A stretch of 64,000 nucleotides of DNA from Vicingaceae bacterium (GTDB taxonomy: Bacteria > Bacteroidota > Bacteroidia > Flavobacteriales_E > Vicingaceae): NCBI GenBank assembly GCA_018402765.1, contig JAGYIE010000002.1, positions 372,001 through 436,000 on the forward strand, read 5' to 3'. A model generated the notes under the pieces. That model did no database searches, was not told where the DNA came from, and saw only the letters and a program-made list of their open reading frames with translations. Position numbers and translations under genes: made by a program. Each line of letters begins with the position of its first letter. Position 1 is the first letter of the stretch. Below, piece by piece: positions 2,153 through 39,662 of the stretch.

Positions 2153-4072
2153 TTATACTATGACTTTTTGGATTGAACCTCTAGTTAAATTAACAGAAAC
2201 TCTTCTATTTAATTTTCTACCTTGAACGGTAGAATTTGATGCAATTGGGTCGTCTTCTCCTCTGGATAATACATCATAATTAACTGTGACCCCTAGTTGT
2301 ATAAAATACTCTTTAACAGCGTTTGCTCTTCGTTCTGCAAGGATATTGTTGTAAGTCGAAGGCCCATAAGAATCTGTATGGCCTGTTATTGTTAAAACAC
2401 TCCCTTCCTCCAATTCCAATTGCTTAATGTAAGCCTCCATTTCTTTCTTACTATTTTCTGATATTCCATAAGAATCAAATCCAAAATAAACCATAAGTCC
2501 AATATCTTGAATTGTTTTTGTAGTATCATCATTAGCTGTTGCTCGTCTTTCATCGCCAATATCACTTTTAGATTCTACTTGTTGTATTTCATCTGTTTGT
2601 TTTGAAGCATCAGGCAATAAAGAATTATTTCCGCTAAGCACTTCATTAACAAATGCTTGATCTTCAATGAAGCGTTCTTGAACATTTGAGTCTGCAATTT
2701 CTGTTTTGATGGTGTTCTGTGAAATTTCTTCCATTGAAGCATCCGAGTAAGTAAGATCAGAAGAAGCAACCAAACTATCATCAATTACTGCATCTAAATT
2801 TGATTCTTCTGCTTCGTTTAAAGAGTTATCAGGAATTAATTCCTTTTCTATTAAGGCTATGTCATCTGATTTGATCAATGTATCATTCTGCTCTTTATTC
2901 GATATGGCTACTAGGTCATCTATAGAAAAATCTTCCATTCCTGCATCATCTCCATCCATTAGTGCAATTGTATAGACATCGGAATCGAGTTTTTTGTATT
3001 GAAATTTTCCCTTAGAATTGGCATAAATTGTGTCAACAACTGCGCCTAACCCATTTTTTACAAGTAACTTGATTGATTTTCTTGATGTTGTATCTAATTG
3101 GGCGATTGAAACTGTTCCCTCTAATAAGTTCGGTGTATTGGTAGCTATCAATTTAATGATGTTTCTATTTCGTTTAAATAACACCTGATAAATATCACTA
3201 AACTTCCCTTTTCGATTACTTGAAAATACTGCAGTATTTTCATCGATTATTGCATAAGACGCATCAAAACCTGTTGAATTGATTTTAGGCCCTAAATTTT
3301 CAGGAGTCGTCCAATCTGACCAACCTTCCCCAATACGCGCAGCTCTGTATATATCCGCAGACCCAAGTCCTCCATGTCCATCACTAGAAAAATACAATTC
3401 CTTCTTGTCTGCTGATAAAAAAGGTGTTGTCTCAATTCCATTGGTATTTATATTGGATCCAAGATCAACTAACTCTCCCCAACTGCCATCACTCTGTTTT
3501 AAACTAACAAAAATATCTTCATAATCTACCCCTTCTTTGGCAGTTGCTACAAAAAATTGTTCCTCGTCGGGTGTTACATAAAATGAATAGAACCCCAAGC
3601 CAATTTCAAACCCAGGTATATTAATGCTTATTGGACTGCCATATGACCCATCGTTGTCTGATTGCACGTATGCTAACCCTTTAGCTAATTTTTGTCTTGT
3701 GTCAAGAGAATTGAAAAAATAAATTCGCGATTCATCCTTATTAACTCCTACAATAACGTTATTCGCATTGTCGTTAGCAGAAACCTTCCAAGGAATTGGA
3801 GTTGTCCATTCTCCCTCCTCGTTTTGACTTAACCAGATTTCTTGCCCAGCCTTTGATGCCCTCTTTTTAGAGGCGCTCATTCGCATGAAGTACATTCTTT
3901 TTGAGGAAGAAATTACAGGATTGCATTCCTCTCCATTTGTATTGATCTCTTTTATCAGCTCAACAGATTCTATATCCTTTATCGCTTCTTGTCCTACAAT
4001 ATTGGTGCAATTAAAGATAACGCTAACAATAAGCAACAAGGAATATATATTTTTGTGTATTTTCATAATCAT
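2153..4072 (-). CDS. PD40 beta-propeller / OmpA-domain periplasmic protein (PorE-like), operon 1
   Basis: 639 residues. A signal peptide (about 1-28) is followed by PD40/WD40-like propeller repeats (about 30-310; repeated Y-F-S-S-x-G and F-x-T-P-D-E patterns). Next come a carboxypeptidase-regulatory-like beta domain (about 315-390) and an acidic Ser/Asp/Glu-rich linker (about 395-520). An OmpA peptidoglycan-binding domain closes the protein (about 525-632), with TGHTDSYGPSTYNNILAERR and GRKLNRRV. In T9SS bacteria such proteins bind peptidoglycan on the periplasmic face and associate with PorP-type outer-membrane proteins. This is the last gene of the operon giant protein, PorP/SprF, OmpA, with 30 bases to the PorP gene. 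A second Met two codons in (4066) could be the true start. It differs from its paralogue at 35999-38692 in having the acidic linker where that protein has five copies of a 94-residue unit. Confidence 0.9.
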   Translation of the reverse strand: MIMKIHKNIYSLLLIVSVIFNCTNIVGQEAIKDIESVELIKEINTNGEECNPVISSSKRMYFMRMSASKKRASKAGQEIWLSQNEEGEWTTPIPWKVSANDNANNVIVGVNKDESRIYFFNSLDTRQKLAKGLAYVQSDNDGSYGSPISINIPGFEIGLGFYSFYVTPDEEQFFVATAKEGVDYEDIFVSLKQSDGSWGELVDLGSNINTNGIETTPFLSADKKELYFSSDGHGGLGSADIYRAARIGEGWSDWTTPENLGPKINSTGFDASYAIIDENTAVFSSNRKGKFSDIYQVLFKRNRNIIKLIATNTPNLLEGTVSIAQLDTTSRKSIKLLVKNGLGAVVDTIYANSKGKFQYKKLDSDVYTIALMDGDDAGMEDFSIDDLVAISNKEQNDTLIKSDDIALIEKELIPDNSLNEAEESNLDAVIDDSLVASSDLTYSDASMEEISQNTIKTEIADSNVQERFIEDQAFVNEVLSGNNSLLPDASKQTDEIQQVESKSDIGDERRATANDDTTKTIQDIGLMVYFGFDSYGISENSKKEMEAYIKQLELEEGSVLTITGHTDSYGPSTYNNILAERRANAVKEYFIQLGVTVNYDVLSRGEDDPIASNSTVQGRKLNRRVSVNLTRGSIQKVIV

Positions 4073-4102: not shown

Positions 4103-5068
4103 TTAAAAAATAGAAACCCCAATAAATAATTCATTACTTCCACTTGAAACCGAACGTATTTCAGAAATATTGTAATCGTATGAATAGCCAATCTTGATCA
4201 ACCCATTAATGTGATAACTAAACAAAACTGAAACGGCATCTTGACTTCTATAAGCTAACCCTCCTGTTAGAATCTGCTTGTATGTTATTATGGCATTTAC
4301 ATCATAACTAAATGGGTTACTGCCAACCTTCTTGATTAAGAAACCTGGAGATAATCGAATTTCGTTGGTTACATCATAATTATATCCTGCCATAAAATAG
4401 TGATGAAAGTCAAAGCGCTCTGAACCAGTTGCCATTTTTACATTTGATAACCCAATTTGGCTTCTAATTAATTGTTGCGTCGAATAACCAACATAAAACT
4501 TATCAGAATAGACGTATACTCCTGAATTTACATTGAATTTATTTGATTGGTCACTAGAAGCATAAGCATCATAAATAGGATCCCCTGAATATAGCACATC
4601 TCCTTTGGTCTCATCAAAACTAAAGCTTTTTAATCCTGCACTTAATCCCATTGAGATAGATATTTCTCTATTTACAGGTAGATGTAATGCATATGAACCC
4701 GAAGCTTCTAATCGCTTAAAGGCTCCAAATTCACTAGAATTAACAACTGCTCCAACTGCATGTTTTACCATAGGCTTTCTCCTCGATGGATGACCCCAAG
4801 AATTACTCATTCTCACCGCAGATCTCATGTAGTTTTTTGGCCTGTTTAGTACCGTATGCCCACTAAAGTAGTATGTAGACGGAGCTACATCAATCCCTGT
4901 CCATTGTTTACGATAGCCCATTCGAATGTCAGCAAAGTTTTCATTTCCCGCAGCAGCAGGATTGATGATGTAATGATTCAAGTTATACATCGTATACTGC
5001 TGAACAGTCTGCGCTTTCATTACAACTGCCATTGAAAGTATAACTGCCATTATTAAAAATCTTTTCAT
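4103..5068 (-). CDS. PorP/SprF family type IX secretion system outer-membrane protein, operon 1
   Basis: 321 residues with a signal peptide (about 1-19). The family's N-terminal signature is visible as QQYTMYNLNHYIINPAAAG, followed by alternating beta-strands typical of an outer-membrane barrel and ending in a hydrophobic-aromatic final strand (ELFIGVSIF). PorP/SprF proteins are partners of individual T9SS substrates. SprF of Flavobacterium johnsoniae is needed to bring the type B substrate SprB to the surface. Here the gene starts 3 bases after the stop of the 10,249-residue type B protein, so it is probably that protein's cognate partner. The paralogue at 38697-39662 has exactly the same length and is very similar by eye, but diverged at many positions. 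Confidence 0.93.
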   Translation of the reverse strand: MKRFLIMAVILSMAVVMKAQTVQQYTMYNLNHYIINPAAAGNENFADIRMGYRKQWTGIDVAPSTYYFSGHTVLNRPKNYMRSAVRMSNSWGHPSRRKPMVKHAVGAVVNSSEFGAFKRLEASGSYALHLPVNREISISMGLSAGLKSFSFDETKGDVLYSGDPIYDAYASSDQSNKFNVNSGVYVYSDKFYVGYSTQQLIRSQIGLSNVKMATGSERFDFHHYFMAGYNYDVTNEIRLSPGFLIKKVGSNPFSYDVNAIITYKQILTGGLAYRSQDAVSVLFSYHINGLIKIGYSYDYNISEIRSVSSGSNELFIGVSIF

Positions 5069-14000: not shown

Positions 14001-17000
14001 CCTGCGGTTAAACCAGTGATGCTTGCTGTGGTTGCTGCGTTGCTCCACAAATAAGTATACGCTGTTGTCCCGCCTGTCGCAGTTACCGTTGCTGTTCCAT
14101 CAGCACCGCCGTTACAACTTATGTTTGTATTGCTTGAAGTTGCTGATAAGGCCGTTGGCTCTGTTACGGTTGCATTTGATGTAGTTGTACATCCGTTGGC
14201 ATCGGTTACTGTTGCGGTATACGTTCCTGCTGTTAAACCAGTAATGCTTGCTGTGGTTGCTGCGTTGCTCCACAAATAAGTATACGCAGTTGTTCCGCCT
14301 GTCGCCGTTACCGTTGCTGTTCCGTCGGCACCGCCATTACAACTTACGTTTGTATTGCTTGAAGTTGCTGATAATGCCGTTGGCTCTGTTACGGTTGCAC
14401 TTGATGTTGTCGTACATCCGTTTGCATCGGTTACTGTTGCGGTATACGTTCCTGCGGTTAAACCAGTGATGCTTGCTGTGGTTGCTGCGTTGCTCCACAA
14501 GAACGTGTAAGGTGCTGTTCCACCTGCTCCGGTTGCAGTAACTGAACCATCTGATAAGCCATTACAGCTAATATCGATTTGAGCTATTGACACAATTGGA
14601 TTTGGATTAACAACTATTGCTATATTCGATGCTGACTGAATTGCACAACTTGTATTACTACAGCCTAAACCAATAACCCTCGATGGAGCGTTGAATAGCG
14701 TACCATTTTTGAGATTTGAGGTTTCATCTAAAAGAGTACTTCCTGACCCCTCTTCCATTCTATAATGACCTAATAACCCATATATAGAGGATAAATCACA
14801 CATATTTCGATAACCATTAACCTCACTTTCGGTTAGTGATCTATTCCAAAAGGTTACTTCATCGATTAAACCTGTAAACATCGAAGACTTTTCAGGTCTA
14901 CCCCCAATACGTGCAGCATTGTGACCATTAATTACACCTTGTCCTGAAGTTGAAAAAACCAATTGACCATTTAAGAAAAACTTAATCTCTGAGCTTGAAT
15001 AAGAAACAGCTATGTGCTCCCATTGATTTAGAGTTGATGTTATATTGGTATTAATATCCCTTCCAGCGAAAATATGGTATTTACTATCACTTTGAATCAC
15101 AATTGCTCTATCCCAATTACCATTATCATTACTTATAATATGATGAGGCCCGCTGGCCGTTGCCGTTCTTTTCACCCAAGCTGTAATAGTTAGTGTTGGA
15201 TTTGATGAAGTATTAATATTGATTGGCACAGTAGCATACTGGTTTGTTCCATTAAAGCTTATAGCTTCTCCTATTCCGGGGGTTAAATCTCCGATACTTG
15301 ATTTTAGGTAAAAATCTGTTGAAGTGTTTAAATTTCCGGTTTGGAAAGCTAAACTAGCACCCGTTCCAGCAAGAGGACCATCGACCAAGGTATTGTTTGT
15401 TGCCTCATATAGTGCATAATTAACACTTAGTTCTGATGAGTTGGTTGTAATTGTTGTTCCGCTGCCTGCGCAAAATTGTGTAGATGCAGCGGTTAATGCT
15501 TGATTGATAATTGAAGTCACGACAACATCATCAGTAGCGGTGCATCCATTAGCTTCGGTAACCGTTACCGTATAAGTTCCTATAGCAGAAACAATGGTTG
15601 TTTGTGTAGTTGCTGCATTAGACCAAACATAACTTGACCAGCCTGCACCTGCATCTAAAGTTACAGAACTAGTTCCGCATGATAGGATAGTATCTTGAGC
15701 GAGGTTGAATGAGGGACTAATTACAGTTAATGTTACTGAATCAGTGCATGACCCTATTCCATCTGACACGGTAACTGTATAAGTAGTTGTTAAAGTTGGA
15801 GAAACTGTTATTGTACTTGTAGTGTCTCCATTTGACCAACTATATGTATATGTTGATAAAGAGCCGGTAGAAGAAAATGATGGGTTAGAATTAAACACAG
15901 CATTGCCTTGTAGTGTAGCAGTTTGATTATCTATCACGTTCTTAGTAACATTCCCTGATCCTTCTTCAAAATTCCAATAACCCACAATTCCATTGGATGA
16001 AGTAGGGACCTTTTTACTGTAAGATGTTGAAATTTCACTTGCTGTTCTTGCCCTGTCCCAAATCCTCACTTCATCAATCTTTCCAAAGTGATAATTTCCA
16101 GCGCTTACCTGACCACCAATTTTAACTGTTGGAGCTGAACCAGGATTCATTGTTCCGGTAAGAGGAGACGTTCCTTGAGAAACACCGTCAATAAACAGCT
16201 CAACCTGCGACCCATTATATGTGCCAACTAAGTGATACCATTTACCTACAACAACACTTCCTGTAACGGTTGCTGTGCTGACTTCATTTAAATTTGAAAC
16301 TTCAAGACCTAAAGTTCCTTGAGATGGAAAGTAAAATAACCATCTGTCAGTTGATGAACTCTGGTGCCAATCAGACATAAAACGAATGCCAGAATTTACA
16401 GAATTAAAATATACCCAAGCCGAAATACTAATTTCACTAGTGGGTCTGATTGCGCTTGAGTTACCGAGATCTATATAATCTCCATTTCCATCAAATGAAA
16501 TAGAATGATTATTAATAACCCCTACTTGTTCAGTACTTAGTTGTATTGTTTGTCCATTACAAATAGTGGTATCATTTTGAACAATTTGTCCATTAATTAC
16601 ACTTACAGCCACACTATCATTCTCTGAACATCCATTTGCATCAGTTACTGTTACTGAATAAACACCAGAAGTTTTAATTGACGTCGTTTGTGCAGTTGCA
16701 AAGGTTGCTGAGCTTGTCGAAGTGCTCCATGCATAACTAGCCCAACCTGCTCCTGCGTCTACTATTACAGAATCTACACCACAAGAGAAGATCGTATCTT
16801 GAGCAAAGCTAAAAGAAATTGGTGCAGGCTCTGTTATGGTTACACTTGATGTAGTTGTACAAGAATTAGCATCTGATACCGTTACCGTATACGTTCCTGC
16901 AGTTACCCCTGTGACACTAGCTGTAATTGCTGAATTACTCCATACAAATGTATATGGTGACGTTCCGCCTGTTGCTGTTACCGTTGCTGTTCCGTCAGCA

Positions 17001-20000
17001 CCGCCGTTACAGCTTACAGATGTATTTACTGAACTCGCTGTTAATGCTGTTGGCTCAGTTATGGTTACACTTGATGTACTCGTACAAGCGTTTTCATCAG
17101 TTACAGTTACTGTATATGTTCCTGCAGCTAATCCTGTGATAGTTGCTGTCGTTGCGATGGTTGTTGAACTTGAAGAACTAGACCAATCATATGAAAGTCC
17201 ATCTCTTTCAATTGCCAAATAAGTCAATCCTGTCCAATTCGCTGTAACAACAGGGAATTCAAAGAATATAGTTCCATCTGGTCTTGCTATCGCAGTGCCA
17301 ACAAACTCAGCTGAATTTATAGTGGAAGATTTAAATGTAGTGGTTGCAATTGCACCGTTTACAGTTAATGTATTATTCACATTAAACGAAGTACTTGCAT
17401 TATTATAAGAAAATAAAGCATACTTATATCTTTCTCCTGCCTGAAGACCAATTACGGTAGCAGATGCAGGTACGGAACTACTAGAATTGGTATGAAAGCC
17501 TCTAGAGTAAGCTCTCAGAGCAGTCCATCCTGTAAGGTTAACAACATAACCATTATTTATAGTTTCTGTAAAAACAGTTGATGCGCTAAAATTACTATCA
17601 GACCCTTTATAAAAATTAGAAGTAAGGGAACTAATTAAGGATAGATCTGAATTATTTAATTTACCATTTACTATAGCTGTTGCTGATCCATCAGATAAAC
17701 CACTGCAGCTTACATTTGCGTTTACAACAGTTGATACCAAAAGAGGTGAAGAAATAGTGACAACTACACTGTCGGTAGCAGTACATCCATTGTTATCTGT
17801 TACTGTTACCGTATAAGTTCCTGAAGCATTAATTGATGTTGTTTGAGTTGCTGCGCTATTACTCCATGAATAACTTGCCCAACCTGCTCCTGCATCCAAT
17901 AAAACCGAACTAGCTCCACATGAACTAATCGTATCTGATGGAAAGTTAAACGCTAGACTGCTAACAACAACTGAAACAGTATCAGAATTCACGGAACACG
18001 TTACACCTCCAGGTTTAGTAACTATACTTCCCTCGGCGTAAACATAAAAATCTGTTGATGCCAATAAACTACCTGTGTTAAATACCAATCCAGAACCTGT
18101 TCCTGAAATTGGACCTGCAACAGTATTTCCATTGACTGCATTTTTTAATGTGTATGTAACTCCATTCTCTGAAGAAGCTGTTCTGACTGTTGTGGAAGAA
18201 CCTAAACAAACAGTAGGTTTTGTAACAGTTAAATTTTGAACAAGCGTTCTATTGATCGTTAATTCTAAAACGACTACTGTATCGCAACCACTTACACTTG
18301 CTAAGGTATCGTAATATGACCCTGATGATGTATAAGTTAATCCATCTGTCCAAGTGTAACTGTTGCAAGCAATTACGGTATCTCTTAGCCTTGGGGCAAT
18401 GTTAATCGTTAAATCTAATGTAATTAACGAGTCACAACCAGCTTGGTTTGTTAAGGTGTAAGTAGCTGTATTATTATTTGTTATATAGGTATTATTATCT
18501 ATCCACGTATAACTATCACAGCTAACTACTGTCTGCACACTAGAATTGTTTTGGTTGATTTCTATAGTATCCTTTGCAACTGATGCAGCCCCACAAGAAT
18601 TTGAACTTAAATCATATGAAATAACATATACACCAAATGTTGATGAGCTTAAATCAATTTCTCCTGTGCTTGCATTAATAGAAAGACCTGAGGTAGAAGA
18701 GAATGTTCCTCCTGTAGCTCCTGTTATAACCGGAGTGGGATCTAATTCTGTAGCACAATAACTAGATGATGAATAACTTATGGTAGCAAACGTAGATGGG
18801 GAAATCGTAATTGATGCAGGTTGTGAGCATAAATCAAACTTTTCATAGACGCGAACATGTCCCGAATTACTTCCTGCCCCGTCGTTTAAAGGTGCACCTG
18901 ATGCAACAATGTCACCAGGACCATTCATTGTAACAGCCCATCCTAGTCGATCGTTAGCAGCTTCACCATCTAGATCAATACCTAATTGATACCATGTGCC
19001 ACCTATATTTTCATAAACTCTAACACTTCCAGAATTACTTCCACCTCCATCATTCAGAGGAGACCCCACTACTACTCTATCCCCTAAATCATTAATAGCG
19101 ACACCACTTCCATCTCCTTCACCTGATCGATCGATAGCTGCTTCTCCTAGAATGTCTTGACCTACTTGAGTCCAAATACTTCCGCTGTAGCTGAAAACTC
19201 TTGTTAATCCTTGCTGACCAAAATCGTTAGGTGCACTTGCCACAACCTTATCACCTGCAGCATTCATATCTACCGACCAGCCAAAATGAGCATTGAATGT
19301 TCTCCCATTTATGTCATTACCTACTTGATTCCAAGTCAATCCATCGTATTCAAAAACACGTGCTTGACCTGAACCAGTGCCAAATCCATTGCTGTATCTA
19401 GCACCTGCTATTATTCTATCTCCTAGATCGCTCATAGATACGGAGAATCCGAATTCATCCGCAGCTACTTCACCATCGATATTCCCACCCAATTGAACCC
19501 ATGATCCATTTGTCAGCTCATAAATGCGAACTTGGCCTGAGTTACTGCCATTAACATCGTTATAAATTGCTCCTGCAACTATGCGATTTCCAGCTGCGTT
19601 GATATCTACAGACCAACCAAAACGGTCGTCACTTGATTGACCATCAATATCAGCTCCCAATTGTGACCATACGCCGTTATCGTATGAGAAAACACGAACT
19701 TGACCTGAATTAACTCCTCCAGCGTCACTAACTTGTGCACCAACAACTAGTCGATCTCCAGCTGCATTCAACGCTACATCCCATCCGAAATTATCATCTG
19801 CAAATTCGCCAGCAATCGTATTACCATAGTTTACCCATGTAGTATCGTTCCACTTATAAACAGTAACTGAACCTGAATTAAGACCGTTAGGATCATCATA
19901 TCTAGAACCAACTGCCATTATATCTCCTGCCTTATTTACATCGATTGAGTTTCCTGAATGATCATCTATAGCTGCACCATCAATATCTATTCCGAATTGA

Positions 20001-23000
20001 TTAAAGTTAGAAGGTGGTGTATAGGTAACATCATAACTTCCAGGAGTTGATGCCGATAGATCAATTGTTCCTGTTAAAGGATCTATTACTAATCCTGTAG
20101 ATGAAGCAAAAAGTCCTCCTGATACACCCGTAATTATTGCGGTAGGATTAGTATCATCACTACAGAATGTACTCGCTAAATAATTAAAATCAGCTGTAGT
20201 TGCCTCTATTTTTACATTTTGAACCATAACTCCTGTACAACTTCCTCCTGTTGTTCCAGGTGTGGTATACGTTACTGCATACACTCCAGGTGTGGATGCG
20301 TCTAAATCGATTACTCCAGTTGATGAATTAATTACGAGACCTGACGTTGAACCAAATACCCCACCTGAAATACCTATTATTGAAGGCGTTGGGTCATTCC
20401 CATCACTACAATAATTAATTGAACTATAACTAAATGTTGGGTCCTCATCTTGTTGAAGAATTATTGCCATTGGCAGTGGACAAATTACTGGTGCTTCATA
20501 TACCCGAACATGACCTGCATTCGCCGCTCCTCCAACATTGTTCCATGCGCCTGAAGCCATTCTATCACCAACTCCATTCATAGCCACTGAGTACCCTAAT
20601 CGGTTGTTTGCTGCCTCTCCATCTACATCAAATCCCAGTTGATTCCAAGAATTGCTTTCTAATCCGTATATTCTAACATGACCTGAATTACTTCCGTTAC
20701 CATCGTTGAGATGCGCTCCAATTGCAATTCTATCCCCCAAATCATTCATAGAAACTGCACTTCCTGCACCTTCCCCTGATCGGTCATCGCTCCCTTCACC
20801 TATAATTTCTTGGCCTTCTTGGCGCCATTTACCTGTGCTAAAACTATAAACAGAAGTATACCCAGCCCGTCCGTAATCATTAGGTGCGCTTACCACTATC
20901 TTATCGCCTGCAGCATTCATATCTACAGACCAACCAAAGTAACTATTTGCGGTTCTTCCATTGATATCTGCTCCTACTTGACTCCAAGTAGCTCCTGTGT
21001 ATTCATACACCCGCACATGGCCAGAATTATTACCAAATCCATCGTTGTATCTTCCTCCTGCTACTATTTTATCTCCTATTTGGTTAATAGATACAGAGCA
21101 GCCAAACTCATCCCCTGCAAATTCCCCATCTAGTGCTGCTCCTAATTGTGTCCAGATACCGTTACTTAATTCATAAATTCGAACTTGTCCTGAATTGCTT
21201 CCATTGGCATCATTGTATATCGCACCTACCACTATTCGGTCTCCTTTGGCATTCATGTCTACTGACCAACCAAAACGATCATCTGCTGCTTGTCCGTTAA
21301 GATCTGCTCCTAACTGAACCCATACGCCACTGTCATAAGCATATACACGAACTTGACCTGAGTTAACCCCACCAGCGTCACTAACTTGTGCACCAACTAC
21401 CAAGCGGTCTCCTGCTGCATTTAGCGCGACATCCCATCCGAAATTATCGTCTGCAAATTCTCCTGCAATAGGATTACCGTACTGAACCCAAGCTGTACCA
21501 TTCCATTTATATACCGTTACTTCTCCTGATTCTAAGCCATTTGGGTCATCTAATCGAGCGCCAACGGCCAAAATATCTCCAGCTTTATTTACTGCAACTG
21601 AGAATCCAAATTGATCTCCTGAACTTATCCCATCGATATCTGCTCCCAACTGATTAAAATTATACGGTGGGGTATAGGTTACATCGTAATTGCCGGCGGT
21701 TGATGCTGAAAGGTTGATTGTCCCTGTAATTGGATCTATCACTAGTCCTGTAGTTGAACTAAATACCCCATCAACCACTCCAGTAATGGCAGCTTTTGGA
21801 TTAGTATCGTTTACACAAAAAGTAGTCGCTCCATACGTAAAGTCGGTTGTGTTGGCTTCTACTCGAATGGTCTGTGACATAAATCCTGCACAACCTCCCA
21901 CTGTTGTTCCAGGTGTGGTATACGTTACTGCATATACTCCAGGTGTGGATGCGTCTAAATCGATTGCCCCTGTAGATGAATTAATTGATAACCCCGAAGT
22001 AGAGCTAAATGTGCCTCCCAACAGTCCTGTGATGACAGGCGTTGGATCGGCTTCTACGCTGCAGTAACTTGATGAACCGTAACTAAATGTTGGGTCCTCA
22101 TCTTGTTGAAGAATTATTGCCATTGGCAGTGGACAAATTACTGGTGCTTCATATACCCGAACATGACCTGCATTCGCCGCTCCTCCAACATTGTTCCATG
22201 CGCCTGAAGCCATTCTATCACCAACTCCATTCATAGCCACTGAGTACCCTAATCGGTTGTTTGCTGCCTCTCCATCTACATCAAATCCCAGTTGATTCCA
22301 AGAATTGCTTTCTAATCCGTATATTCTAACATGACCTGAATTACTTCCGTTACCATCGTTGAGATGCGCTCCAATTGCAATTCTATCCCCCAAATCATTC
22401 ATAGAAACTGCACTTCCTGCACCTTCCCCTGATCGGTCATCGCTCCCTTCACCTATAATTTCTTGGCCTTCTTGGCGCCATTTACCTGTGCTAAAACTAT
22501 AAACAGAAGTATACCCAGCCCGTCCGTAATCATTAGGTGCGCTTACCACTATCTTATCGCCTGCAGCATTCATATCTACAGACCAACCAAAGTAACTATT
22601 TGCGGTTCTTCCATTGATATCTGCTCCTACTTGACTCCAAGTAGCTCCTGTGTATTCATACACCCGCACATGGCCAGAATTATTACCAAATCCATCGTTG
22701 TATCTTCCTCCTGCTACTATTTTATCTCCTATTTGGTTAATAGATACAGAGCAGCCAAACTCATCCCCTGCAAATTCCCCATCTAGTGCTGCTCCTAATT
22801 GTGTCCAGATACCGTTACTTAATTCGTAAATTCGAACTTGTCCTGAATTGCTTCCATTGGCATCATTGAATATCGCACCTACCACTATTCGGTCTCCTTT
22901 GGCATTCATGTCTACTGACCAACCAAAATGATCATCTGCTGCTTGTCCATTAAGATCTGCACCTAACTGAACCCATACGCCACTGTCATAAGCATATACA

Positions 23001-26000
23001 CGAACTTGACCTGAGTTATTGCCATTTGCATCATTATAAACAGCTCCAACAATCAACCGGTCTCCAGATGCATTTAATGCTACATCAAAGCCAAAAAGAT
23101 CATCTGCTGATTCTCCGGCTATCGAATTACCATATTGCACCCAAGCTGTTCCATTCCATTTATATACTGTTACCTCTCCCGAATTACTTCCATTTGGATC
23201 ATCATAACGAGCGCCAACGGCTAAAATATCTCCAGCTTTATTTACTGCAACTGAGAATCCAAATTGATCTCCTGAACTTATCCCATCGATATCTGCTCCC
23301 AACTGATTAAAATTATACGGTGGGGTATAGGTTACATCGTAATTGCCGGCGGTTGATGCTGAAAGGTTGATTGTGCCTGTAATTGGATCTATCACTAGTC
23401 CTGTAGTTGAACTAAATACCCCATCAACCACTCCAGTAATGGTAGCTTTTGGATTAGTATCGTTTACACAAAAAGTAGTCGCTCCATACGTAAAGTCGGT
23501 TGTGTTGGCTTCTACTCGAATGGTCTGCGACATAAATCCTGCACAACCTCCCACTGTTGTTCCAGGTGTGGTATACGTTACTGCATATACTCCAGGTGTG
23601 GATGCGTCTAAATCGATTGCCCCTGTAGATGAATTAATTGATAACCCCGAAGTAGAGCTAAATGTGCCTCCCAACAGTCCTGTGATGACAGGCGTTGGAT
23701 CGGCTTCTACGCTGCAGTAACTTGATGAACCGTAACTAAATGTTGGGTCCTCATCTTGTTGAAGAATTATTGCCATTGGCAGTGGACAAATTACTGGTGT
23801 TTCATATACCCGAACATGACCTGCATTCGCCGCCCCTCCAACATTGTTCAATGCGCCTGAAGCCATTCTATCACCTACTCCATTCATTGCAACTGAAAAC
23901 CCTAATTGATTGTTTGCCGCCTCTCCATCTAAATCAAATCCCAATTGGTTCCATGAGTTGCTTTCTAATCCGTATATTCTTACATGACCTGAATTACTTC
24001 CGTTACCATCGTTTAAATACGCTCCAATTGCAATTCTATCCCCCAAATCATTCATAGAAACTGCACTTCCTTCTCCATGACCTGATCGATCACCGCCTGC
24101 TTCTCCAATAATTTCTTGTCCCTCTTGGCGCCATTTACCTGTACTAAAACTATAAACAGAAGTAGCTCCATTTTGACCGTAATCATAAGGTGCGCTCGCC
24201 ACTATCTTATCGCCTGCTGCATTCATATCTACAGACCAACCAAAGTAACTATTTGCGGTTCTTCCATTGATATCTGCTCCTACTTGACTCCAGGTAGCTC
24301 CTGTGTATTCATACACCCGCACATGACCCGAATTGCTGCCAAATCCATCGTTATTCCTTGCTCCAGCTACTATTTTATTTCCTAAAGCATTTATGGCTAC
24401 CGAATATCCAAAAAGATCATCAGCGTATTCTCCATCTAGTGCTGCTCCTAGTTGTGTCCAGATACCGTTACTTAATTCGTAAATTCGAACTTGTCCTGAA
24501 TTGCTTCCATTGGCATCATTGAATATCGCACCTACCACTATTCGGTCTCCTTTGGCATTCATGTCTACTGACCAACCAAAATGATCATCTGCTGCTTGTC
24601 CATTAAGATCTGCACCTAACTGAACCCATACGCCACTGTCATAAGCATATACACGAACTTGACCTGAGTTATTGCCATTTGCATCATTATAAACAGCTCC
24701 AACAATCAACCGGTCTCCAGATGCATTTAATGCTACATCAAAGCCAAAAAGATCATCTGCTGATTCTCCGGCTATCGAATTACCATATTGCACCCAAGCT
24801 GTTCCATTCCATTTATATACTGTTACCTCTCCCGAATTACTTCCATTTGGATCATCATAACGAGCGCCAACGGCTAAAATATCTCCAGCTTTATTTACTG
24901 CAACTGAGAATCCAAATTGATCTCCTGAACTTATCCCATCGATATCTGCTCCCAACTGATTAAAATTATACGGTGGGGTATAGGTTACATCGTAATTGCC
25001 GGCGGTTGATGCTGAAAGGTTGATTGTGCCTGTAATTGGATCTATCACTAGTCCTGTAGTTGAACTAAATACCCCATCAACCACTCCAGTAATGGTAGCT
25101 TTTGGATTAGTATCGTTTACACAAAAAGTAGTCGCTCCATACGTAAAGTCGGTTGTGTTGGCTTCTACTCGAATGGTCTGCGACATAAATCCTGCACAAC
25201 CTCCCACTGTTGTTCCAGGTGTGGTATACGTTACTGCATATACTCCAGGTGTGGATGCGTCTAAATCGATTGCCCCTGTAGATGAATTAATTGATAACCC
25301 CGAAGTAGAGCTAAATGTGCCTCCCAACAGTCCTGTGATGACAGGCGTTGGATCGGCTTCTACGCTGCAGTAACTTGATGAACCGTAACTAAATGTTGGG
25401 TCCTCATCTTGTTGAAGAATTATTGCCATTGGCAGTGGACAAATTACTGGTGTTTCATATACCCGAACATGACCTGCATTCGCCGCCCCTCCAACATTGT
25501 TCAATGCGCCTGAAGCCATTCTATCACCTACTCCATTCATTGCAACTGAAAACCCTAATTGATTGTTTGCCGCCTCTCCATCTAAATCAAATCCCAATTG
25601 GTTCCATGAGTTGCTTTCTAATCCGTATATTCTTACATGACCTGAATTACTTCCGTTACCATCGTTTAAATACGCTCCAATTGCAATTCTATCCCCCAAA
25701 TCATTCATAGAAACTGCACTTCCTTCTCCATGACCTGATCGATCACCGCCTGCTTCTCCAATAATTTCTTGTCCCTCTTGGCGCCATTTACCTGTACTAA
25801 AACTATAAACAGAAGTAGCTCCATTTTGACCGTAATCATAAGGTGCGCTCGCCACTATCTTATCGCCTGCTGCATTCATATCTACAGACCAACCAAAGTA
25901 ACTATTTGCGGTTCTTCCATTGATATCTGCTCCTACTTGACTCCAGGTAGCTCCTGTGTATTCATACACCCGCACATGACCCGAATTGCTGCCAAATCCA

Positions 26001-29000
26001 TCGTTATTCCTTGCTCCAGCTACTATTTTATTTCCTAAAGCATTTATGGCTACCGAATATCCAAAAAGATCATCAGCGTATTCTCCATCTAGTGCTGCTC
26101 CTAATTGTGTCCAGATACCGTTACTTAATTCATAAATTCGAACTTGTCCTGAATTGCTTCCATTGGCATCATTGTATATCGCACCTACCACTATTCGGTC
26201 TCCTTTGGCATTCATGTCTACTGACCAACCAAAACGATCATCTGCTGCTTGTCCGTTAAGATCTGCTCCTAACTGAACCCATACGCCACTGTCATAAGCA
26301 TATACACGAACTTGACCTGAGTTAACCCCACCAGCGTCACTAACTTGTGCACCAACTACCAAGCGGTCTCCTGCTGCATTTAGCGCGACATCCCATCCGA
26401 AATTATCGTCTGCAAATTCTCCTGCAATAGGATTACCGTACTGAACCCAAGCTGTACCATTCCATTTATATACCGTTACTTCTCCTGATTCTAAGCCATT
26501 TGGGTCATCTAATCGAGCGCCAACGGCCAAAATATCTCCAGCTTTATTTACTGCAACTGAGAATCCAAATTGATCTCCTGAACTTATCCCATCGATATCT
26601 GCTCCCAACTGATTAAAATTATACGGTGGGGTATAGGTTACATCGTAATTGCCGGCGGTTGATGCTGAAAGGTTGATTGTCCCTGTAATTGGATCTATCA
26701 CTAGTCCTGTAGTTGAACTAAATACCCCATCAACCACTCCAGTAACGGTAGCTTTTGGGTTTACTTCATTTATACAAAAAGTAGTCGCTCCATACGTGAA
26801 GTCGGTTGTATTGGCTTCTACTCGAATGGTCTGCGACATAAATCCTGCACAACCTCCAACTGTTGTTCCAGGTGTAGTATACGTTACTGCGTAAACCCCA
26901 GGTGTGGATGCGTCTAAATCGATTGCCCCTGTAGATGAATTAATTGATAACCCCGAGGTAGAGCTAAATGTGCCTCCTAACAGTCCTGTGATAACAGGTG
27001 TTGGATCGGCTTCTACACTGCAAAAATTAGTAGTACTGTAGGTAAATGAGGGATCCTCATTCGTAATAGTTAAATTTAGCGTAATCGTACTATCACAACC
27101 TAGAGTATTCGTTAAGGTCTCAAAATAAACACCTGATTCAAAATATAATTTGCCATTCTCAGGCCATGTATAAGTGCCGCAATTAGAAACAGTTTGTGAA
27201 TTTGAAGAACTTTGCCCTATAGAAATGGTAGCTTGGGAAACAGATGCTGATCCACAAGTATTTGAACTCAAATTATAGGAAACAACATAAGTCCCATCTG
27301 CAGAATTACTTAGATCAATCTCACCAGAATTTGCATCTATGGATAGCCCTACTGTGGATGAAAATGTTCCGCCTGTTGAGCCCGTTATCACAGGAGTTGG
27401 ATCTACTCCGGCTGAGCAATAATTTGATGAAGCATAACTAATAGAAGCAATAGGAGACAATGTAATACTTACAGGTGAAGATTGCGAGCATTGATCAAAT
27501 TTCTCATAAACTCGAACGTGGCCTGAATTGCTGCCGCCACCATCATTCCCTATAGCACCTGAAGCCACTCGGTCGCCTATTGCATTAATTGCAACAGAAA
27601 ATCCTAAATAATCATCTTGTGCTTCTCCATCTAAATGCGCTCCTAATTTAAACCAGCTACTTCCGTTAATTTCATATATGCTAGTTTGGCCTGAATTTCT
27701 TCCATTCCCATCATCTAACCATGCTCCAACAACTATTCGATCACCTAGGTCGTTCATCGCTACAGCATAGCCTAAGCGATCTTCATTATCTCCATTGATA
27801 TCATTTCCGAGTTTGCCCCAAACACCACCGCTGAATTCATAAACTCTTACTTGACCGGAATTGTTAGGAACCGCATCACTTAAATGTGCACCGACTACAA
27901 TACGATTACCTGAAGCATTCATGCCTACTTCTATTCCAAATTGGTCTCCTGCAAAGGCGCCATCGATATCGGTTCCCAATTGTGTCCAAGTCCCACTTAT
28001 TAATCCATAAACACTAACTTGTCCTGATGAAGGGCCATTCGCATTACTTGCAAATGCTCCAATAACTACCTTATCACCTAAATCATTTATCGCTACTGAA
28101 TTTCCAAATTGGTCTCCTGCAAATGCACCATCTAATGTTGCACCCAATTGAACCCACAATCCATTGATTAACTCATACATTGTTGCCTGCCCTGAATTGC
28201 TGCCATTTACATCATTCAATAGTGCCCCTACAACAATTCGATCTCCTCCTGCATTTATATCGACTGAGTAACCAAATTGATCATTTGCAAATGCTCCATT
28301 TATAGCTTGTCCAAGCTGATGCCAAGTCCCATTATCATAAGAGTAAACTCGCACTTGACCTGAATTGCCACCATTATCATCTTTAGATCGAGCACCTACT
28401 ATTAAGCGATTTCCTGCCGCATTCAATGCTACATCCCAACCAAATTGATCATCTGCTGATTCTCCTGCTATCGAATTGCCGTATTGAACCCAAGCTGTTC
28501 CATCCCATTGGTATACAAAAACTTCTCCTGAGCTTGCTCCGTTTGGGTCATCATAGCGAGCGCCTACGGCCATGATATCTCCAACTTTGTTAAACGCTAT
28601 AGCATTTCCAAATTCATCGCCAGCACTTTTTCCATCCAAATCTGCGCCTAACTGATTAAAGTTAGACGGTGGAGTGTAACTGATATTGTAATTCCCAGGA
28701 GTGGAGGCCAATAAATTAATCGTTCCTGTTGATGGGTCAATTATCAACCCTGTTGAGGAGCTGAATATTCCACCTGCAACTCCTGTAATTGTAGGAATTG
28801 GATCTACATCATTAGAACAAAAAGCCGTTGTGCTATAATTAAAATCAATTGAAGTAGATAATACCCTTATAATTTGCGAAGAATTACCTCGACAACTACC
28901 TATAGCAGTACCAGAGGTAGTGTACGTTACATCGTAAATGCCAGGGGTAGACGCATCTAAATCGATTGCTCCTGTGGATGAATTAATTACAAGGCCTGAT

Positions 29001-32000
29001 GTAGAGCTAAATGTGCCTCCTAAAGTACCTGTAATGGTTGGTGTTGGGTCTGCTTCAATACTGCAATAACTCGATGAATTGTAACTAAATGTTGGATCCT
29101 CTTGTTGTTGAAGTATTATTGGTAAGGGTAAAGGACAAATTACAGGAGTTTCATAAACTCGAACGTGGCCTGAATTGCTGCCGCCACCATCATTCCCTAT
29201 AGCACCTGAAGCCACTCGGTCGCCTATTGCATTAATTGCAACAGAAATTCCTGAATAATCATTAGCCGCTTCACCGTCTAAGTCAAAACCCAATTGTTCC
29301 CATAGACTTCCTTTAATTTCATAAACCCGAGTATGCCCAGAGTTAGAGCCATTCCCATCATCGAAATATGCTCCAACTACTATTCGATCGCCTGCATCGT
29401 TCATCGCTACAGCATAGCCAAAACGATCATCATTACTCTCTCCATTGATATCATTTCCGATTTTGCGCCAAGCTCCTCCGCTGAATTCGTATACTCTCAC
29501 TTGACCAGCATCGTTAGGAACTGCATCATTTAAATCTGCGCCAACGACAATACGATTACCTGAAGCATTCATGCCAACTTCTATTCCAAATCGATCACCT
29601 GCAAAAGCGCCATCGATATCGGTTCCCAATTGTGTCCAAGTCCCACTTATTAATCCATAAACACTAACTTGTCCTGATGAAGGGCCATTGGCATTACTTG
29701 CAAAGGCTCCTATAACTACCTTATCGCCTAAATCATTTATCGCTACTGAATTTCCAAATTGATCGTTTGCAAATGCGCCATCTAATGAAGCGCCTAATTG
29801 AACCCACAATCCATTGACTAACTCATAAATTGTTGCCTGCCCTGAATTACTGCCATTTACATCATTCAATCGCGCTCCAACAACAATTCGACCTCCTACT
29901 GCATTTATATCGACTGAGTAACCAAATTGATCATTTGCAAATGCTCCATTTATAGCTTGTCCAAGCTGCTGCCAAGTCCCATTATCATAAGAGTAAACTC
30001 GCACTTGACCGGAGTTATTCCCATTTGCGTCATTATGAATAGCTCCAACAATTAACCGGTCTCCGGATGCATTTAATGCGACATCCCAACCAAAACGATC
30101 ATCTGCTGATTCTCCTGCTATCGAATTACCATATTGAACCCAAGCTGTTCCATCCCATTGGTATACAAAAACTTCTCCTGAGTTTGCTCCGTTTGGGTCA
30201 TCATAGCGAGCGCCTGCGGCCATGATATCTCCAACTTTGTTAAACGCTATGGCGTTTCCAAACTCATCGCCAGCACTTTTCCCATCCAAATCTGCACCTA
30301 GCTGATTAAAGTTAGACGGTGGAGTGTAACTGACATTGTAATTCCCAGGTGTGGAGGCCAATAAATTAATCGTTCCTGTTAATGAATCGATTACTAAGCC
30401 TGTGCTAGACGTAAACTTTCCATTTAATACACCTGTTACGGTTGCTTTTGGATTGGTATCGTTAATGCAAAAAGTGGTTGCCGTATAGTTAAAGTCGGTT
30501 GTAGTAGCTGAAATGATTAGTTGTTGTGTCAATACGCCGGCACAACTGCCTATTGTACTTCCTGAAGTGGTGTACGTTACATCGTAAACGCCAGGGGTAG
30601 ACACATCTAAATCGATGGCTCCTGTGGATGAATTAATTACAAGGCCTGATGTAGAGCTAAATGTGCCTCCTAAAGTACCTGTAATGGTTGGTGTTGGGTC
30701 TGCTTCAATACTGCAATAACTCGATGAATTGTAGGTAAATGTTGGATCCTCTTGTTGTTGAAGTATTATTGGTAAGGGTAAAGGACAAATTACAGGGGTT
30801 TCATAAACCCGAACGTGGCCTGAATTGCTGCCGCCACCATCATTCCCTACAGCACCTGAAGCCACTCGGTCGCCTGTTCCATTTATTGCAACAGAAATTC
30901 CTGAATAATCAATAGCCGCTTCCCCGTCTAAGTCAAAGCCCAATTGTTCCCATAGACTTCCTTTAATTTCATATACCCGAGTATGCCCAGAGTTAGAGCC
31001 ATTCCCATCATCGAAATATGCTCCAACTACTATTCGATCGCCTGCATCGTTCATCGCTACAGCATAGCCAAAACGATCATCATTACTCTCTCCATTGATA
31101 TCATTTCCGATTTTGCGCCAAGCTCCTCCGCTGAATTCGTATACTCTCACTTGACCAGCATCGTTAGGAACTGCATCATTTAAATCTGCGCCAACGACAA
31201 TACGATTACCTGAAGCATTCATGCCAACTTCTATTCCAAATCGATCACCTGCAAAAGCGCCATCGATATCGGTTCCCAATTGTGTCCAAGTCCCACTTAT
31301 TAATCCATAAACACTAACTTGTCCTGATGAAGGGCCATTGGCATTACTTGCAAAGGCTCCTATAACTACCTTATCGCCTAAATCATTTATCGCTACTGAA
31401 TTTCCAAATTGATCGTTTGCAAATGCGCCATCTAATGAAGCGCCTAATTGAACCCACAATCCATTGACTAACTCATAAATTGTTGCCTGCCCTGAATTAC
31501 TGCCATTTACATCATTCAATCGCGCTCCAACAACAATTCGACCTCCTACTGCATTTATATCGACTGAGTAACCAAATTGATCATTTGCAAATGCTCCATT
31601 TATAGCTTGTCCAAGCTGCTGCCAAGTCCCATTATCATAAGAGTAAACTCGCACTTGACCGGAGTTATTCCCATTTGCGTCATTATGAATAGCTCCAACA
31701 ATTAACCGGTCTCCGGATGCATTTAATGCGACATCCCAACCAAAACGATCATCTGCTGATTCTCCTGCTATCGAATTACCATATTGAACCCAAGCTGTTC
31801 CATCCCATTGGTATACAAAAACTTCTCCTGAGTTTGCTCCGTTTGGGTCATCATAGCGAGCGCCTGCGGCCATGATATCTCCAACTTTGTTAAACGCTAT
31901 GGCGTTTCCAAACTCATCGCCAGCACTTTTCCCATCCAAATCTGCACCTAGCTGATTAAAGTTAGACGGTGGAGTGTAACTGACATTGTAATTCCCAGGT

Positions 32001-35000
32001 GTGGAGGCCAATAAATTAATCGTTCCTGTTAATGAATCGATTACTAAGCCTGTGCTAGACGTAAACTTTCCATTTAATACACCTGTTACGGTTGCTTTTG
32101 GATTGGTATCGTTAATGCAAAAAGTGGTTGCCGTATAGTTAAAGTCGGTTGTAGTAGCTGAAATGATTAGTTGTTGTGTCAATACGCCGGCACAACTGCC
32201 TATTGTACTTCCTGAAGTGGTGTACGTTACATCGTAAACGCCAGGGGTAGACACATCTAAATCGATGGCTCCTGTGGATGAATTAATTACAAGGCCTGAT
32301 GTAGAGCTAAATGTGCCTCCTAAAGTACCTGTAATGGTTGGTGTTGGGTCTGCTTCAATACTGCAATAACTCGATGAATTGTAGGTAAATGTTGGATCCT
32401 CTTGTTGTTGAAGTATTATTGGTAAGGGTAAAGGACAAATTACAGGGGTTTCATAAACCCGAACGTGGCCTGAATTGCTGCCGCCACCATCATTCCCTAC
32501 AGCACCTGAAGCCACTCGGTCGCCTGTTCCATTTATTGCAACAGAAATTCCTGAATAATCAATAGCCGCTTCCCCGTCTAAGTCAAAGCCCAATTGTTCC
32601 CATAGACTTCCTTTAATTTCATATACCCGAGTATGCCCAGAGTTAGAGCCATTCCCATCATCGAAATATGCTCCAACTACTATTCGATCGCCTGCATCGT
32701 TCATCGCTACAGCATAGCCAAAACGATCATCATTACTCTCTCCATTGATATCATTTCCGATTTTGCGCCAAGCTCCTCCGCTGAATTCGTATACTCTCAC
32801 TTGACCAGCATCGTTAGGAACTGCATCATTTAAATCTGCGCCAACGACAATACGATTACCTGAAGCATTCATGCCAACTTCTATTCCAAATCGATCACCT
32901 GCAAAAGCGCCATCGATATCGGTTCCCAATTGTGTCCAAGTCCCACTTATTAATCCATAAACACTAACTTGTCCTGATGAAGGGCCATTGGCATTACTTG
33001 CAAAGGCTCCTATAACTACCTTATCGCCTAAATCATTTATCGCTACTGAATTTCCAAATTGATCGTTTGCAAATGCGCCATCTAATGAAGCGCCTAATTG
33101 AACCCACAATCCATTGACTAACTCATAAATTGTTGCCTGCCCTGAATTACTGCCATTTACATCATTCAATCGCGCTCCAACAACAATTCGACCTCCTACT
33201 GCATTTATATCGACTGAGTAACCAAATTGATCATTTGCAAATGCTCCATTTATAGCTTGTCCAAGCTGCTGCCAAGTCCCATTATCATAAGAGTAAACTC
33301 GCACTTGACCGGAGTTATTCCCATTTGCGTCATTATGAATAGCTCCAACAATTAACCGGTCTCCGGATGCATTTAATGCGACATCCCAACCAAAACGATC
33401 ATCTGCTGATTCTCCTGCTATCGAATTACCATATTGAACCCAAGCTGTTCCATCCCATTGGTATACAAAAACTTCTCCTGAGTTTGCTCCGTTTGGGTCA
33501 TCATAGCGAGCGCCTGCGGCCATGATATCTCCAACTTTGTTAAACGCTATGGCGTTTCCAAACTCATCGCCAGCACTTTTCCCATCCAAATCTGCACCTA
33601 GCTGATTAAAGTTAGACGGTGGAGTGTAACTGACATTGTAATTCCCAGGTGTGGAGGCCAATAAATTAATCGTTCCTGTTAATGAATCGATTACTAAGCC
33701 TGTGCTAGACGTAAACTTTCCATTTAATACACCTGTTACGGTTGCTTTTGGATTGGTATCGTTAATGCAAAAAGTGGTTGCCGTATAGTTAAAGTCGGTT
33801 GTAGTAGCTGAAATGATTAGTTGTTGTGTCAATACGCCGGCACAACTGCCTATTGTACTTCCTGAAGTGGTGTACGTTACATCGTAAACGCCAGGGGTAG
33901 ACACATCTAAATCGATGGCTCCTGTGGATGAATTAATTACAAGGCCTGATGTAGAGCTAAATGTGCCTCCTAAAGTACCTGTAATGGTTGGTGTTGGGTC
34001 TGCTTCAATACTGCAATAACTCGATGAATTGTAGGTAAATGTTGGGTTTTCATCTTGTTTAAGTTCTATAGCCAATGGAAGAGGACAACTTTCTATAGTT
34101 TGATAAACCCGAACGTGGCCTGAATTACTGCCGCCGCCATCGTTTAGTTGAGCTCCGGATGTAACTATATCTCCTGCGCCGTTAATTGCTACAGACCATC
34201 CTGACCAATCGTCTTGTGCTTCTCCGTCTAAGTCAAAACCTAGTATATTCCAATAGCCTTTTTCTAATCCATAAACTCTTGCATGGCCTGAATTACTACC
34301 TCCACCATCATTTTGCCAAGCACCGATTACAACTTTATCTCCTATATCATTAATAGAAACAGAATTTCCATCAGCCCCACCTGAGTAATCTTGATTTGCT
34401 TCACCCAAAATATCTTGCCCTACTTGTGTCCAAGTATTTCCTGTATTGCGGTAAATTCTTGCTAACCCTTTTTGATTGTCTTCATTAGGTGCAGTTGCAA
34501 CAACCATATCCCCAGCCGCATTCATATCTACAGACCAACCAAAATATGTATTTGCTGTTTTCCCATTAATATCAGCACCGACTTGATTCCAACTTCCTAA
34601 ATTGTACGCATAAACTCTAACATGACCCGCATCATTAGCAAGCCCATCGTTGAATCTACCTCCTGCAACCACTCGATCGCCTAAATCATTCATTGCAACA
34701 GAAAAACCAAATTCATCTCCTGGCATCTCTCCATCGATATCTGAACCCAACTGAGCCCATAAACCATTAATCAACCCATAAATTCTTACATGACCTGAGT
34801 TACTCCCGTTACCATCATTGAATCTAGCTCCTGCTACTATCCGATCTCCTTGTGCATTGATATCAACTGACCAACCAAATCGATCGTCATTTGCCTCTCC
34901 ATCTATATCTTGTCCAAGTTGATTCCAAACCCCATTATTATAACTATATACCCGAACGTGACCTGAATTACTGCCACCATCATCATTTAATTGAGCACCT

Positions 35001-38692: not shown

Positions 38693-38696
38693 TCCC

Positions 38697-39662
38697 TTAG
38701 TATATTGTAAATCCAATAAATAATTCATTACTTCCACTTGAAACTTCGCGAATATCGGAAGTGATGTAATCGTAAGAATATCCTATTTTTATTAGGTTGT
38801 TAATCTGAATTGAAAACATTGCTGATAGAGCATCAGTACTTCTGTATCCTGCACCTAAAGACAGAAACTGCTTGTAAGTTAAAAAGGCATTTATATCATA
38901 ACTTAACGGGTTTTTACCGACTTGCTTCAATAAAACACTTGGCGTAAGTCTAAAATCATTGGTTAAATCAAAATTATAACCCCCCATCAACATGTGATGT
39001 AAATCAAATCGCTCACCTCCCGTAACTAGTTTGATATTTGATAGCCCAATCTCATTGCGGATTAATTGCTGTGCTGAATATCCTGCAAAAAATTTATCGG
39101 AATAAATATATACTCCTGTGCTTGCATTGAATCTAGTACTTCTGTCACTACTTGCATAAGAATCATAAATCGGATCGTTCGAATACAATACCTTAGCCTT
39201 ATTCTCATCAAAACTAAAGCTATTGATCCCTGCGCTAATACCCATAGATAAAGACACCTTTCTATTAATAGGTAAATGCAAAGCATATGACCCTGAGGCT
39301 TCTAATCTATTAAAAGCTCCAAATTGACTAGTGTTTACTAATCCTCCTACTGCATGTTTGACCATCGGCCTTCTAGCAGTCTTCCGCCATGTATCACTGA
39401 TTCGAATAGCTGACCGCTCATAATTTTTGGGTCGGTTCAATACCGTGTGGCCGCTTAAATAATAAGTCTTCGGGGCTTCTTTTAAACCAGACCATTGTTG
39501 CCGATAGCCCGATCGAATATCTGCAAAGTTTTCGTTACCTGCTGCTGCAGGATTAATCAGATAATGGTTCTGATTATACATCGTGTACTGCTGAACAGTT
39601 TGCGATTTCGCCACTACAGTAACTAACAATGTAAATGCTAATAGAATATAACGTATTTTCAT
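38697..39662 (-). CDS. PorP/SprF family type IX secretion system outer-membrane protein, operon 2
   Basis: 321 residues with a signal peptide (about 1-20) and the family signature QQYTMYNQNHYLINPAAAG near the N terminus. Predicted beta strands end in ELFIGFTIY. The role is probably to receive and anchor the type B surface protein encoded 7 bases upstream, by analogy with SprF and SprB. It lies in the tight operon giant protein, PorP, PD40/OmpA (gaps of 7 and 4 bases). The paralogue at 4103-5068 has the same length, with substitutions spread along the whole protein and no sign of recent conversion. This is in contrast to the near-identical tract shared by the upstream giant genes. Confidence 0.93.
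   Translation of the reverse strand: MKIRYILLAFTLLVTVVAKSQTVQQYTMYNQNHYLINPAAAGNENFADIRSGYRQQWSGLKEAPKTYYLSGHTVLNRPKNYERSAIRISDTWRKTARRPMVKHAVGGLVNTSQFGAFNRLEASGSYALHLPINRKVSLSMGISAGINSFSFDENKAKVLYSNDPIYDSYASSDRSTRFNASTGVYIYSDKFFAGYSAQQLIRNEIGLSNIKLVTGGERFDLHHMLMGGYNFDLTNDFRLTPSVLLKQVGKNPLSYDINAFLTYKQFLSLGAGYRSTDALSAMFSIQINNLIKIGYSYDYITSDIREVSSGSNELFIGFTIY

Follow-up and report, generated by a model that had tools for sequence, protein, structure and literature searches.

Whole head domains are probably inserted into loops of stalk units in the giant SprB-class adhesins of a Vicingaceae bacterium

Introduction

How can a long stalk built of tandem units carry whole folded domains along its length and still run on as one stalk? 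The question is raised by a 64,000-nucleotide stretch of the genome of a Vicingaceae bacterium (assembly GCA_018402765.1, contig JAGYIE010000002.1, positions 372,001 to 436,000), referred to below as the window, which encodes two giant proteins, giant 1 and giant 2. An initial annotation of the window had described two LamG domains and one unnamed domain, each interrupting a recognisable stalk unit of giant 1, and had proposed that binding domains are displayed from loops of stalk domains, so that the stalk stays continuous while side-facing heads are added. Here, the interrupting domain is termed a guest and the interrupted unit its host. We consider it quite probable that the giants are SprB-class adhesins of the type IX secretion system (T9SS) with whole heads inserted into single loops of their stalk units.

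Split hosts in giant 1

Giant 1 and its relevant units are as follows (coordinates are positions in the window).

5072–35821, minus strand: giant 1, a single intact open frame of 10,249 residues; surface adhesin with a C-terminal CHU_C (T9SS type B) signal
17957–18238, minus strand: uninterrupted Ig_7-like unit of giant 1 (Pfam Ig_7 E 0.0015, 19.2 bits, below the cut-off)
17663–17749, minus strand: SprB host, N-terminal half (residues 6025–6053; profile positions 3–27; Pfam SprB positions 5–23, E 0.0086, below the cut-off)
17198–17662, minus strand: 155-residue guest with no assigned family (residues 6054–6208)
17051–17197, minus strand: SprB host, C-terminal half (residues 6209–6257; profile positions 33–72)
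16526–16600, minus strand: PKD-like host, N-terminal half through strand B (residues 6408–6432; profile positions 2–16)
15851–16525, minus strand: LamG 1 guest (residues 6433–6657)
15716–15850, minus strand: PKD-like host, C-terminal half beginning with strand C (residues 6658–6702; profile positions 21–61)
15296–15502, minus strand: Ig_7-like host, strands preceding LamG 2 (residues 6774–6842; profile positions 2–64)
14660–15295, minus strand: LamG 2 guest (residues 6843–7054)
14603–14659, minus strand: Ig_7-like host, last strand (residues 7055–7073)

Host halves were compared with profiles made from units that carry no insert (175 PKD-like, 128 SprB, 27 HYR, and 17 Ig_7-like); a regular expression aimed at plain PKD units proved too stringent and was set aside. 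On the SprB profile, the flanks of the 155-residue guest score 23.0 and 46.4 bits apart and 69.9 bits joined. The PKD-like host of LamG 1 reaches 59.7 bits when its two halves are joined. For the Ig_7-like host of LamG 2, the custom profile gives 59.8 bits for the N-terminal part and 64.0 bits after joining, a gain of 4.2 bits. The joined flanks of LamG 2 match Pfam Ig_7 (PF19081) at 37.8 bits over positions 7–84 of 84 (cut-off 27.3), and Ig_7 is the sole Pfam family found for them at E up to 1; in a Pfam scan of the unjoined region at the same limit, Ig_7 was not listed. Taking the window as a whole, the custom profiles find complementary halves in six of nine cases, and a seventh, the Ig_7 host, rests on Pfam and on the relatives described below. 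The joined PKD host scores 20.3 bits with Pfam PKD, under the cut-off of 23.5 though near full length. Because the joined Pfam PKD and HYR scores fall below their cut-offs while the custom profiles are strong, these hosts are named PKD-like and HYR-like.

The three inserts were found where the initial annotation had placed them, the 155-residue domain in an SprB unit, LamG 1 in a PKD-like unit, and LamG 2 in an Ig-like unit, and the uninterrupted form of the LamG 2 host, also noted there, proved to be the Ig_7-like unit at 17957–18238. Separate, complete domains in the flanking halves, the outcome that would have spoken against its proposal, are unlikely, because the shorter half in these three cases comprises 19–29 residues, which is too short for a domain.

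Both LamGs of giant 1 match Laminin_G_3 (PF13385) above the curated cut-off (two stretches in Pfam, E 3.6e-54). The 155-residue guest has no Pfam or NCBIfam match, and a comparison with PDB sequences gave chance-level matches only (antibody light chains, fibronectin; E 0.02–0.73). Among 100 genomes searched, it has a full match only in its own genome, and a 53-residue fragment occurs in one other.

Plain and loaded hosts in relatives

A search for the same host units with and without an insert in other genomes, suggested by the initial annotation, recovered both forms, with the same insertion point. An Ig_7-like unit is present in 13 of 60 genomes, at 21 places (E up to 0.001). When these loci were read, 12 were plain (two of them, L179 and L189, being one identical unit), eight held one LamG, and one held two LamGs in tandem. 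The LamG insertion point in the loaded loci is constant, after a 'TYNVYA'-like strand and before an 'EMTQTVTITV'-like strand, and LamG occupies the identical site in seven genomes. Over a wider protein set, 22 of 44 Ig_7-like units are plain, 20 are LamG-loaded, and 2 are unclear, a count that is not a frequency because the sample was partly drawn using a loaded query. Plain and loaded units stand together in four proteins (giant 1, L073, L116, and L129), and the loaded cases include Tenacibaculum, Aureispira, Chitinophagaceae, and Cyclobacteriaceae. The joined flanks at one locus (L102) match Pfam Ig_7 at 63.4 bits; at another (L088) the LamG lies in an FN3-like host whose joined fn3 match is below the cut-off. 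A plain PKD-like unit, or a near equivalent, is found in 58 of the 60 relatives.

The Ig_7 site also receives a guest of another kind. Pfam Ig_7 matches occur in 59 of the 60 relatives, and among the matches listed many end at profile position 63–69 of 84. Nine loci that end early were read, and seven of them (L257, L259, L260, L261, L263, L267, and L268) carry, before the last strand, a domain of about 130 residues that is unrelated to LamG and ends in a 'YYYFYNW'-like stretch; it was not seen at this site in the other two (L265 and L266). In the two cases tested, the Ig_7 scores of 62.6 and 58.6 bits became 79.4 and 70.7 bits, respectively, once the flanks of this guest were joined, with the match reaching position 83. 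Two members tested against Pfam and NCBIfam have no family there, and one member searched has no sequence relative in the PDB. Several hosts of this guest are proteins of about 1,170 residues, listed from many genomes.

A tree of LamG guests (66 rows, built by a quick method) groups them by host, with 10 changes of host label compared to a mean of 36.8 after shuffling. Hopping of LamG guests between hosts is not claimed from it, as the deep forks are weak and a single origin per host is compatible with the tree.

Further split hosts in the genome

Giant 2 and its split hosts are listed below.

39670–55224, minus strand: giant 2, 5184 residues; a paralogue of giant 1 of the same design
51748–52626, minus strand: PKD-like host with a 218-residue fibrinogen-like, GGGW-type guest (profile positions 3–20 then 21–64; NF040941 E 4.6e-4, below the cut-off)
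50656–51543, minus strand: PKD-like host with a LamG (profile positions 2–17 then 21–59)
48052–48876, minus strand: PKD-like host with a LamG (profile positions 1–16 then 21–64)
42823–43737, minus strand: HYR-like host with a LamG (profile positions 6–47 then 53–77)

The joined HYR-like host matches Pfam HYR at 18.9 bits over positions 5–81 of 81 (cut-off 21.7), and its halves have no match. Besides the two giants, the genome encodes L023 (G000:C9 661001-681000; 3121 residues), which contains three LamGs in Big_5 and CarboxypepD hosts. Its Big_5 unit holds two LamGs and scores 35.6 bits joined versus 15.8 and 14.9 bits for the halves (positions 14–41 and 54–101), and its CarboxypepD_reg-like unit holds one LamG and scores 26.7 bits joined, below the cut-off of 32.3. 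Relatives of L023 (L228–L236) were found in nine further genomes, and the LamGs are fixed within the CarboxypepD_reg-like and Big_5 units of these proteins of about 3,100 residues across genera. In the eight proteins, L023 included, in which both flanks of the CarboxypepD host are aligned, the spacing from its N-terminal to its C-terminal part is 214 (seven proteins) or 216 (one protein) residues. Of the ten LamGs of the genome, eight are plugged in, and two (L011 and L018) lie near the N-terminus of small proteins.

Chance control

A blind survey covered 203 LamG blocks flanked on each side by 60 residues or more, and a host was called when the joined flanks reached at least 20 bits with a gain of at least 4 bits. 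The control consisted of 600 random excisions of matched sizes from the same proteins. A host was rebuilt in 23 of the 203 LamG blocks versus 7 of the 600 random excisions; with the Ig_7-like profile alone, the counts are 13 of 203 versus 0 of 600.

Structure predictions

Two AlphaFold models were computed. The first covers residues 6004–7080 with all three hosts together, and its alignment of 33 rows is too shallow; the second covers residues 6398–6712 (the PKD host with LamG 1), and its 40 alignment rows include no plain host. In the first model, LamG 2 and the host strands that precede it have a predicted local distance difference test (pLDDT) score of mostly 70–95, and, by ten-residue block, the Ig_7 host between residue 6784 and the insert scores 70–91. 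In the second, LamG 1 scores mostly 80–98 by ten-residue block, and the PKD host shows strand B (model residues 28–33, pLDDT about 50) and strands C to G (261–303), these host strands scoring about 45–63; the strand letters are our reading of the model.

A fold search with LamG 1 gave PAPP-A (Z 26.7, 206 residues aligned, root-mean-square deviation (rmsd) 2.1) and 4dqa, a Bacteroides protein with putative carbohydrate binding (Z 23.4, 201 residues aligned, rmsd 2.4). LamG 2 matched 4dqa (Z 23.1, 194 residues aligned, rmsd 2.5) as well as pentraxins. Both LamG guests thus form complete domains, with a LamG/pentraxin-like fold in the case of LamG 1. The searches are dominated by LamG matches and are uninformative on the hosts. 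Structure prediction, which the initial annotation had recommended as a check, bears out the complete LamGs and the host strands on both sides; as to closure of the host fold, the models are consistent with it, the only confidently modelled host region being the one N-terminal to LamG 2 in the Ig_7 unit.

Alternative explanations

Several results weigh against insertion into closed hosts. The last strand of the Ig_7 host, taken alone, goes unscored by the custom profile (1.9 bits, misplaced), and in the first model (model residues 1066–1069) its pLDDT is 45–62. In the same model the SprB host with its guest is not usable and LamG 1 is poor as well, and in the second model the PKD host scores about 40–63. 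Of the nine cases in the window, two did not pass the profile test, namely a 220-residue module of giant 2 and the host of the giant 1 propellers (both described below), where joining gains only 2–4 bits and the profile end is reached in two of ten. The blind survey called just one of the five LamG hosts of the window; we think that adjacent intact units mask the gain. It also left the majority of the 203 LamG blocks with no assigned host, and these remaining blocks have mostly hosts outside the profiles built, or none.

Low AlphaFold confidence in the host halves, together with the 7 of 600 random excisions that rebuild a unit in the same proteins, would suit an arrangement like beads on a string, in which LamGs lie between short linkers that resemble pieces of repeats, left over from unequal recombination, and the two halves do not make up one domain. 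One would not expect such leftovers to complement each other with a precision of a few residues in one host after another, nor to flank the identical site in seven genomes, nor would they account for the 214–216-residue CarboxypepD spacer kept by the relatives of L023, and we regard this explanation as quite improbable. Somewhat less improbable, though still unlikely in our view, is that insertion is real and serves no display, the guests being structural spacers, stabilisers, or neutral passengers in exposed loops. Ligand binding by the guests is putative, the 155-residue guest, with its full match in just one of 100 genomes, is passenger-like, and two tandem LamGs can occupy one loop. Against mere passengers speak the LamG fold matches to a putative carbohydrate-binding protein and to pentraxins, the several unrelated kinds of guest at common sites, and the retention of the L023-type inserts across genera. 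Insertion of heads into stalk-unit loops is thus the explanation that we favour.

A model of loop-borne heads

The proposal of display from loops stands in its first part. At the level of sequence there is good support, from complementary halves, joined Pfam matches, and plain and loaded relatives, for guests that lie within loops of stalk units which are complete apart from the insert. Its further parts, closure of the host fold, heads that face sideways from a mechanically continuous stalk, and binding of ligands by these heads, we infer, the last from the LamG fold alone.

The following mechanism could be envisaged. The stalks of the giants are made of tandem Ig-like units (SprB, PKD-like, Ig_7, and HYR), a few of which carry a whole head in one loop. 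The insertion loop joins strands B and C in the PKD-like and SprB units; in Ig_7 it joins F and G, the last two strands. The host strands on either side of the insert would close into one Ig-like domain. The chain would thereby exit the stalk axis, fold a head, and re-enter the stalk at one loop, so heads (LamG, fibrinogen-like, or orphan domains) could be gained or lost with the stalk unbroken and would project from it toward sugars or proteins. The C-terminal type B signal would tie the giant to an SprF-type shuttle on the cell surface. By strand order, we take the pre-last-strand loop of Ig_7 and the B-C loop of PKD and SprB units to be counterparts of the antibody complementarity-determining regions CDR3 and CDR1, respectively, the B-C and F-G loops presumably lying at a common pole of the Ig fold.

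More tentatively, T9SS adhesins of Bacteroidota might use a few stalk-unit loops, these foremost among them, as general sockets, into which unrelated heads are plugged, doubled, or removed by recombination. This would be a modular, loop-borne display, distinct from that of tip adhesins, and could explain adhesive domains in the middle of the protein in this phylum. We lean slightly against so general a statement.

Propellers and a rejected guest

18770–35455, minus strand: ten FG-GAP_2 beta-propellers of about 389 residues in giant 1 (FG-GAP_2 match; first 1300 residues scanned), each adjoined by a plain Ig-like sister unit

The propellers of giant 1 could be plugged in too, and then nearly all mass outside the stalk would consist of inserted heads; we see the arguments as evenly balanced. 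Plain and propeller-bearing Ig-like units alternate, and the distance from the Cys to the unit that follows measures 25 residues where a propeller precedes versus 26 after a plain unit. This is suggestive of each propeller being plugged into an Ig-like unit; set against it is the small gain on joining given above. Several propellers are nearly identical (e.g., residues 1142–2240), and the copies look recently duplicated.

The 220-residue module of giant 2 (residues 1603–1822; window 49759–50418) was considered as an SprB guest and rejected, since an N-terminal host half is lacking. This module, which has no assigned name, is also found in L054, in L056, where it is located near the N-terminus, and apparently in Hymenobacter (L069), and it lies between units, not inside one.

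Neighbouring genes

4103–5068, minus strand: PorP/SprF shuttle gene directly downstream of giant 1 (E 4.2e-63)
38697–39662, minus strand: PorP/SprF shuttle gene directly downstream of giant 2 (E 7.4e-67)

OmpA-family proteins with PD40 repeats adjoin each sprF gene (window 2153–4072 and 35999–38737). The last approximately 500 residues of giants 1 and 2 are, by eye, nearly identical except for the final approximately 130, as after recent duplication or gene conversion. Elsewhere in the genome, a 4139-residue open reading frame (L019, G000:C9 257000-275000) has a long array of SprB repeats, none of which, by eye, carries an inserted domain; it is a natural comparison for a stalk without heads.

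Comparison with known adhesins

Giants 1 and 2 resemble the SprB-class type B adhesins in having SprB repeats, a C-terminal CHU_C (type B) domain, and a cognate porP/sprF gene directly downstream. Their C-terminus is CHU_C and not the C-terminal RTX repeats that go with type I secretion. In Flavobacterium johnsoniae, type B adhesins and porP/sprF form cognate pairs, and it is the type B signal on SprB that directs cargo toward the gliding machinery, according to the parts of PMC12618676 available to us, which do not mention inserted heads.

Bacteroidetes adhesins with adhesive domains in the middle of the protein are a reported oddity (PMC8286594, in the portion accessible to us). The giants share with the fibrillar adhesins of that portion a stalk and adhesive domains; insertion into stalk units is not mentioned there. 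Loop insertion would be one possible way of placing heads mid-protein and, if true, offers an explanation for those domains. A stalk unit that ends before its last strand would then alert annotators to a head, also to heads without a name like the 155-residue and approximately 130-residue guests, and these loops would be natural insertion sites at which a domain is carried with the stalk unbroken.

In Gram-positive pilus-tip adhesins, a VWA binding domain is inserted in a supporting domain; there is a single head at the tip, and anchoring and folds are different. Our literature searches, mostly at the level of title listings, found no description of split-domain display in giant proteins of Bacteroidota. 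As far as these searches show, the T9SS setting and the range of hosts are new, as is one site that can be plain, loaded once, loaded twice, or loaded with an unrelated unnamed domain, together with the spread of this site over Bacteroidota families.

The closest parallel is provided by the RTX adhesins. In AhLap, FrhA, and MpIBP, a ligand-binding domain emerges from a 'split' Ig-like domain, whose fold resumes beyond the insert, and is said to point off the adhesin axis, and a split domain already serves to spot ligand-binding domains in this class (PMC12077191 and PMC10865825, as far as their accessible text goes). The giants likewise have long stalks of tandem units and, as predicted from sequence, heads that emerge from an Ig-like domain of which the remainder follows the insert. 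RTX adhesins are type I secreted, belong to gammaproteobacteria, and bear carbohydrate-binding module (CBM), PA14, RTX, vWFA, or peptide-binding heads, whereas the giants are T9SS cargo, and the hosts described here are SprB, PKD-like, Ig_7, HYR, Big_5, and CarboxypepD units with LamG, fibrinogen-like, or unnamed guests. A further difference is that here one and the same site is plain or loaded in many proteins. It appears that the giants work like the split-domain adhesins of the RTX type and yet are not members of that class, because their secretion system, hosts, and guests are different.

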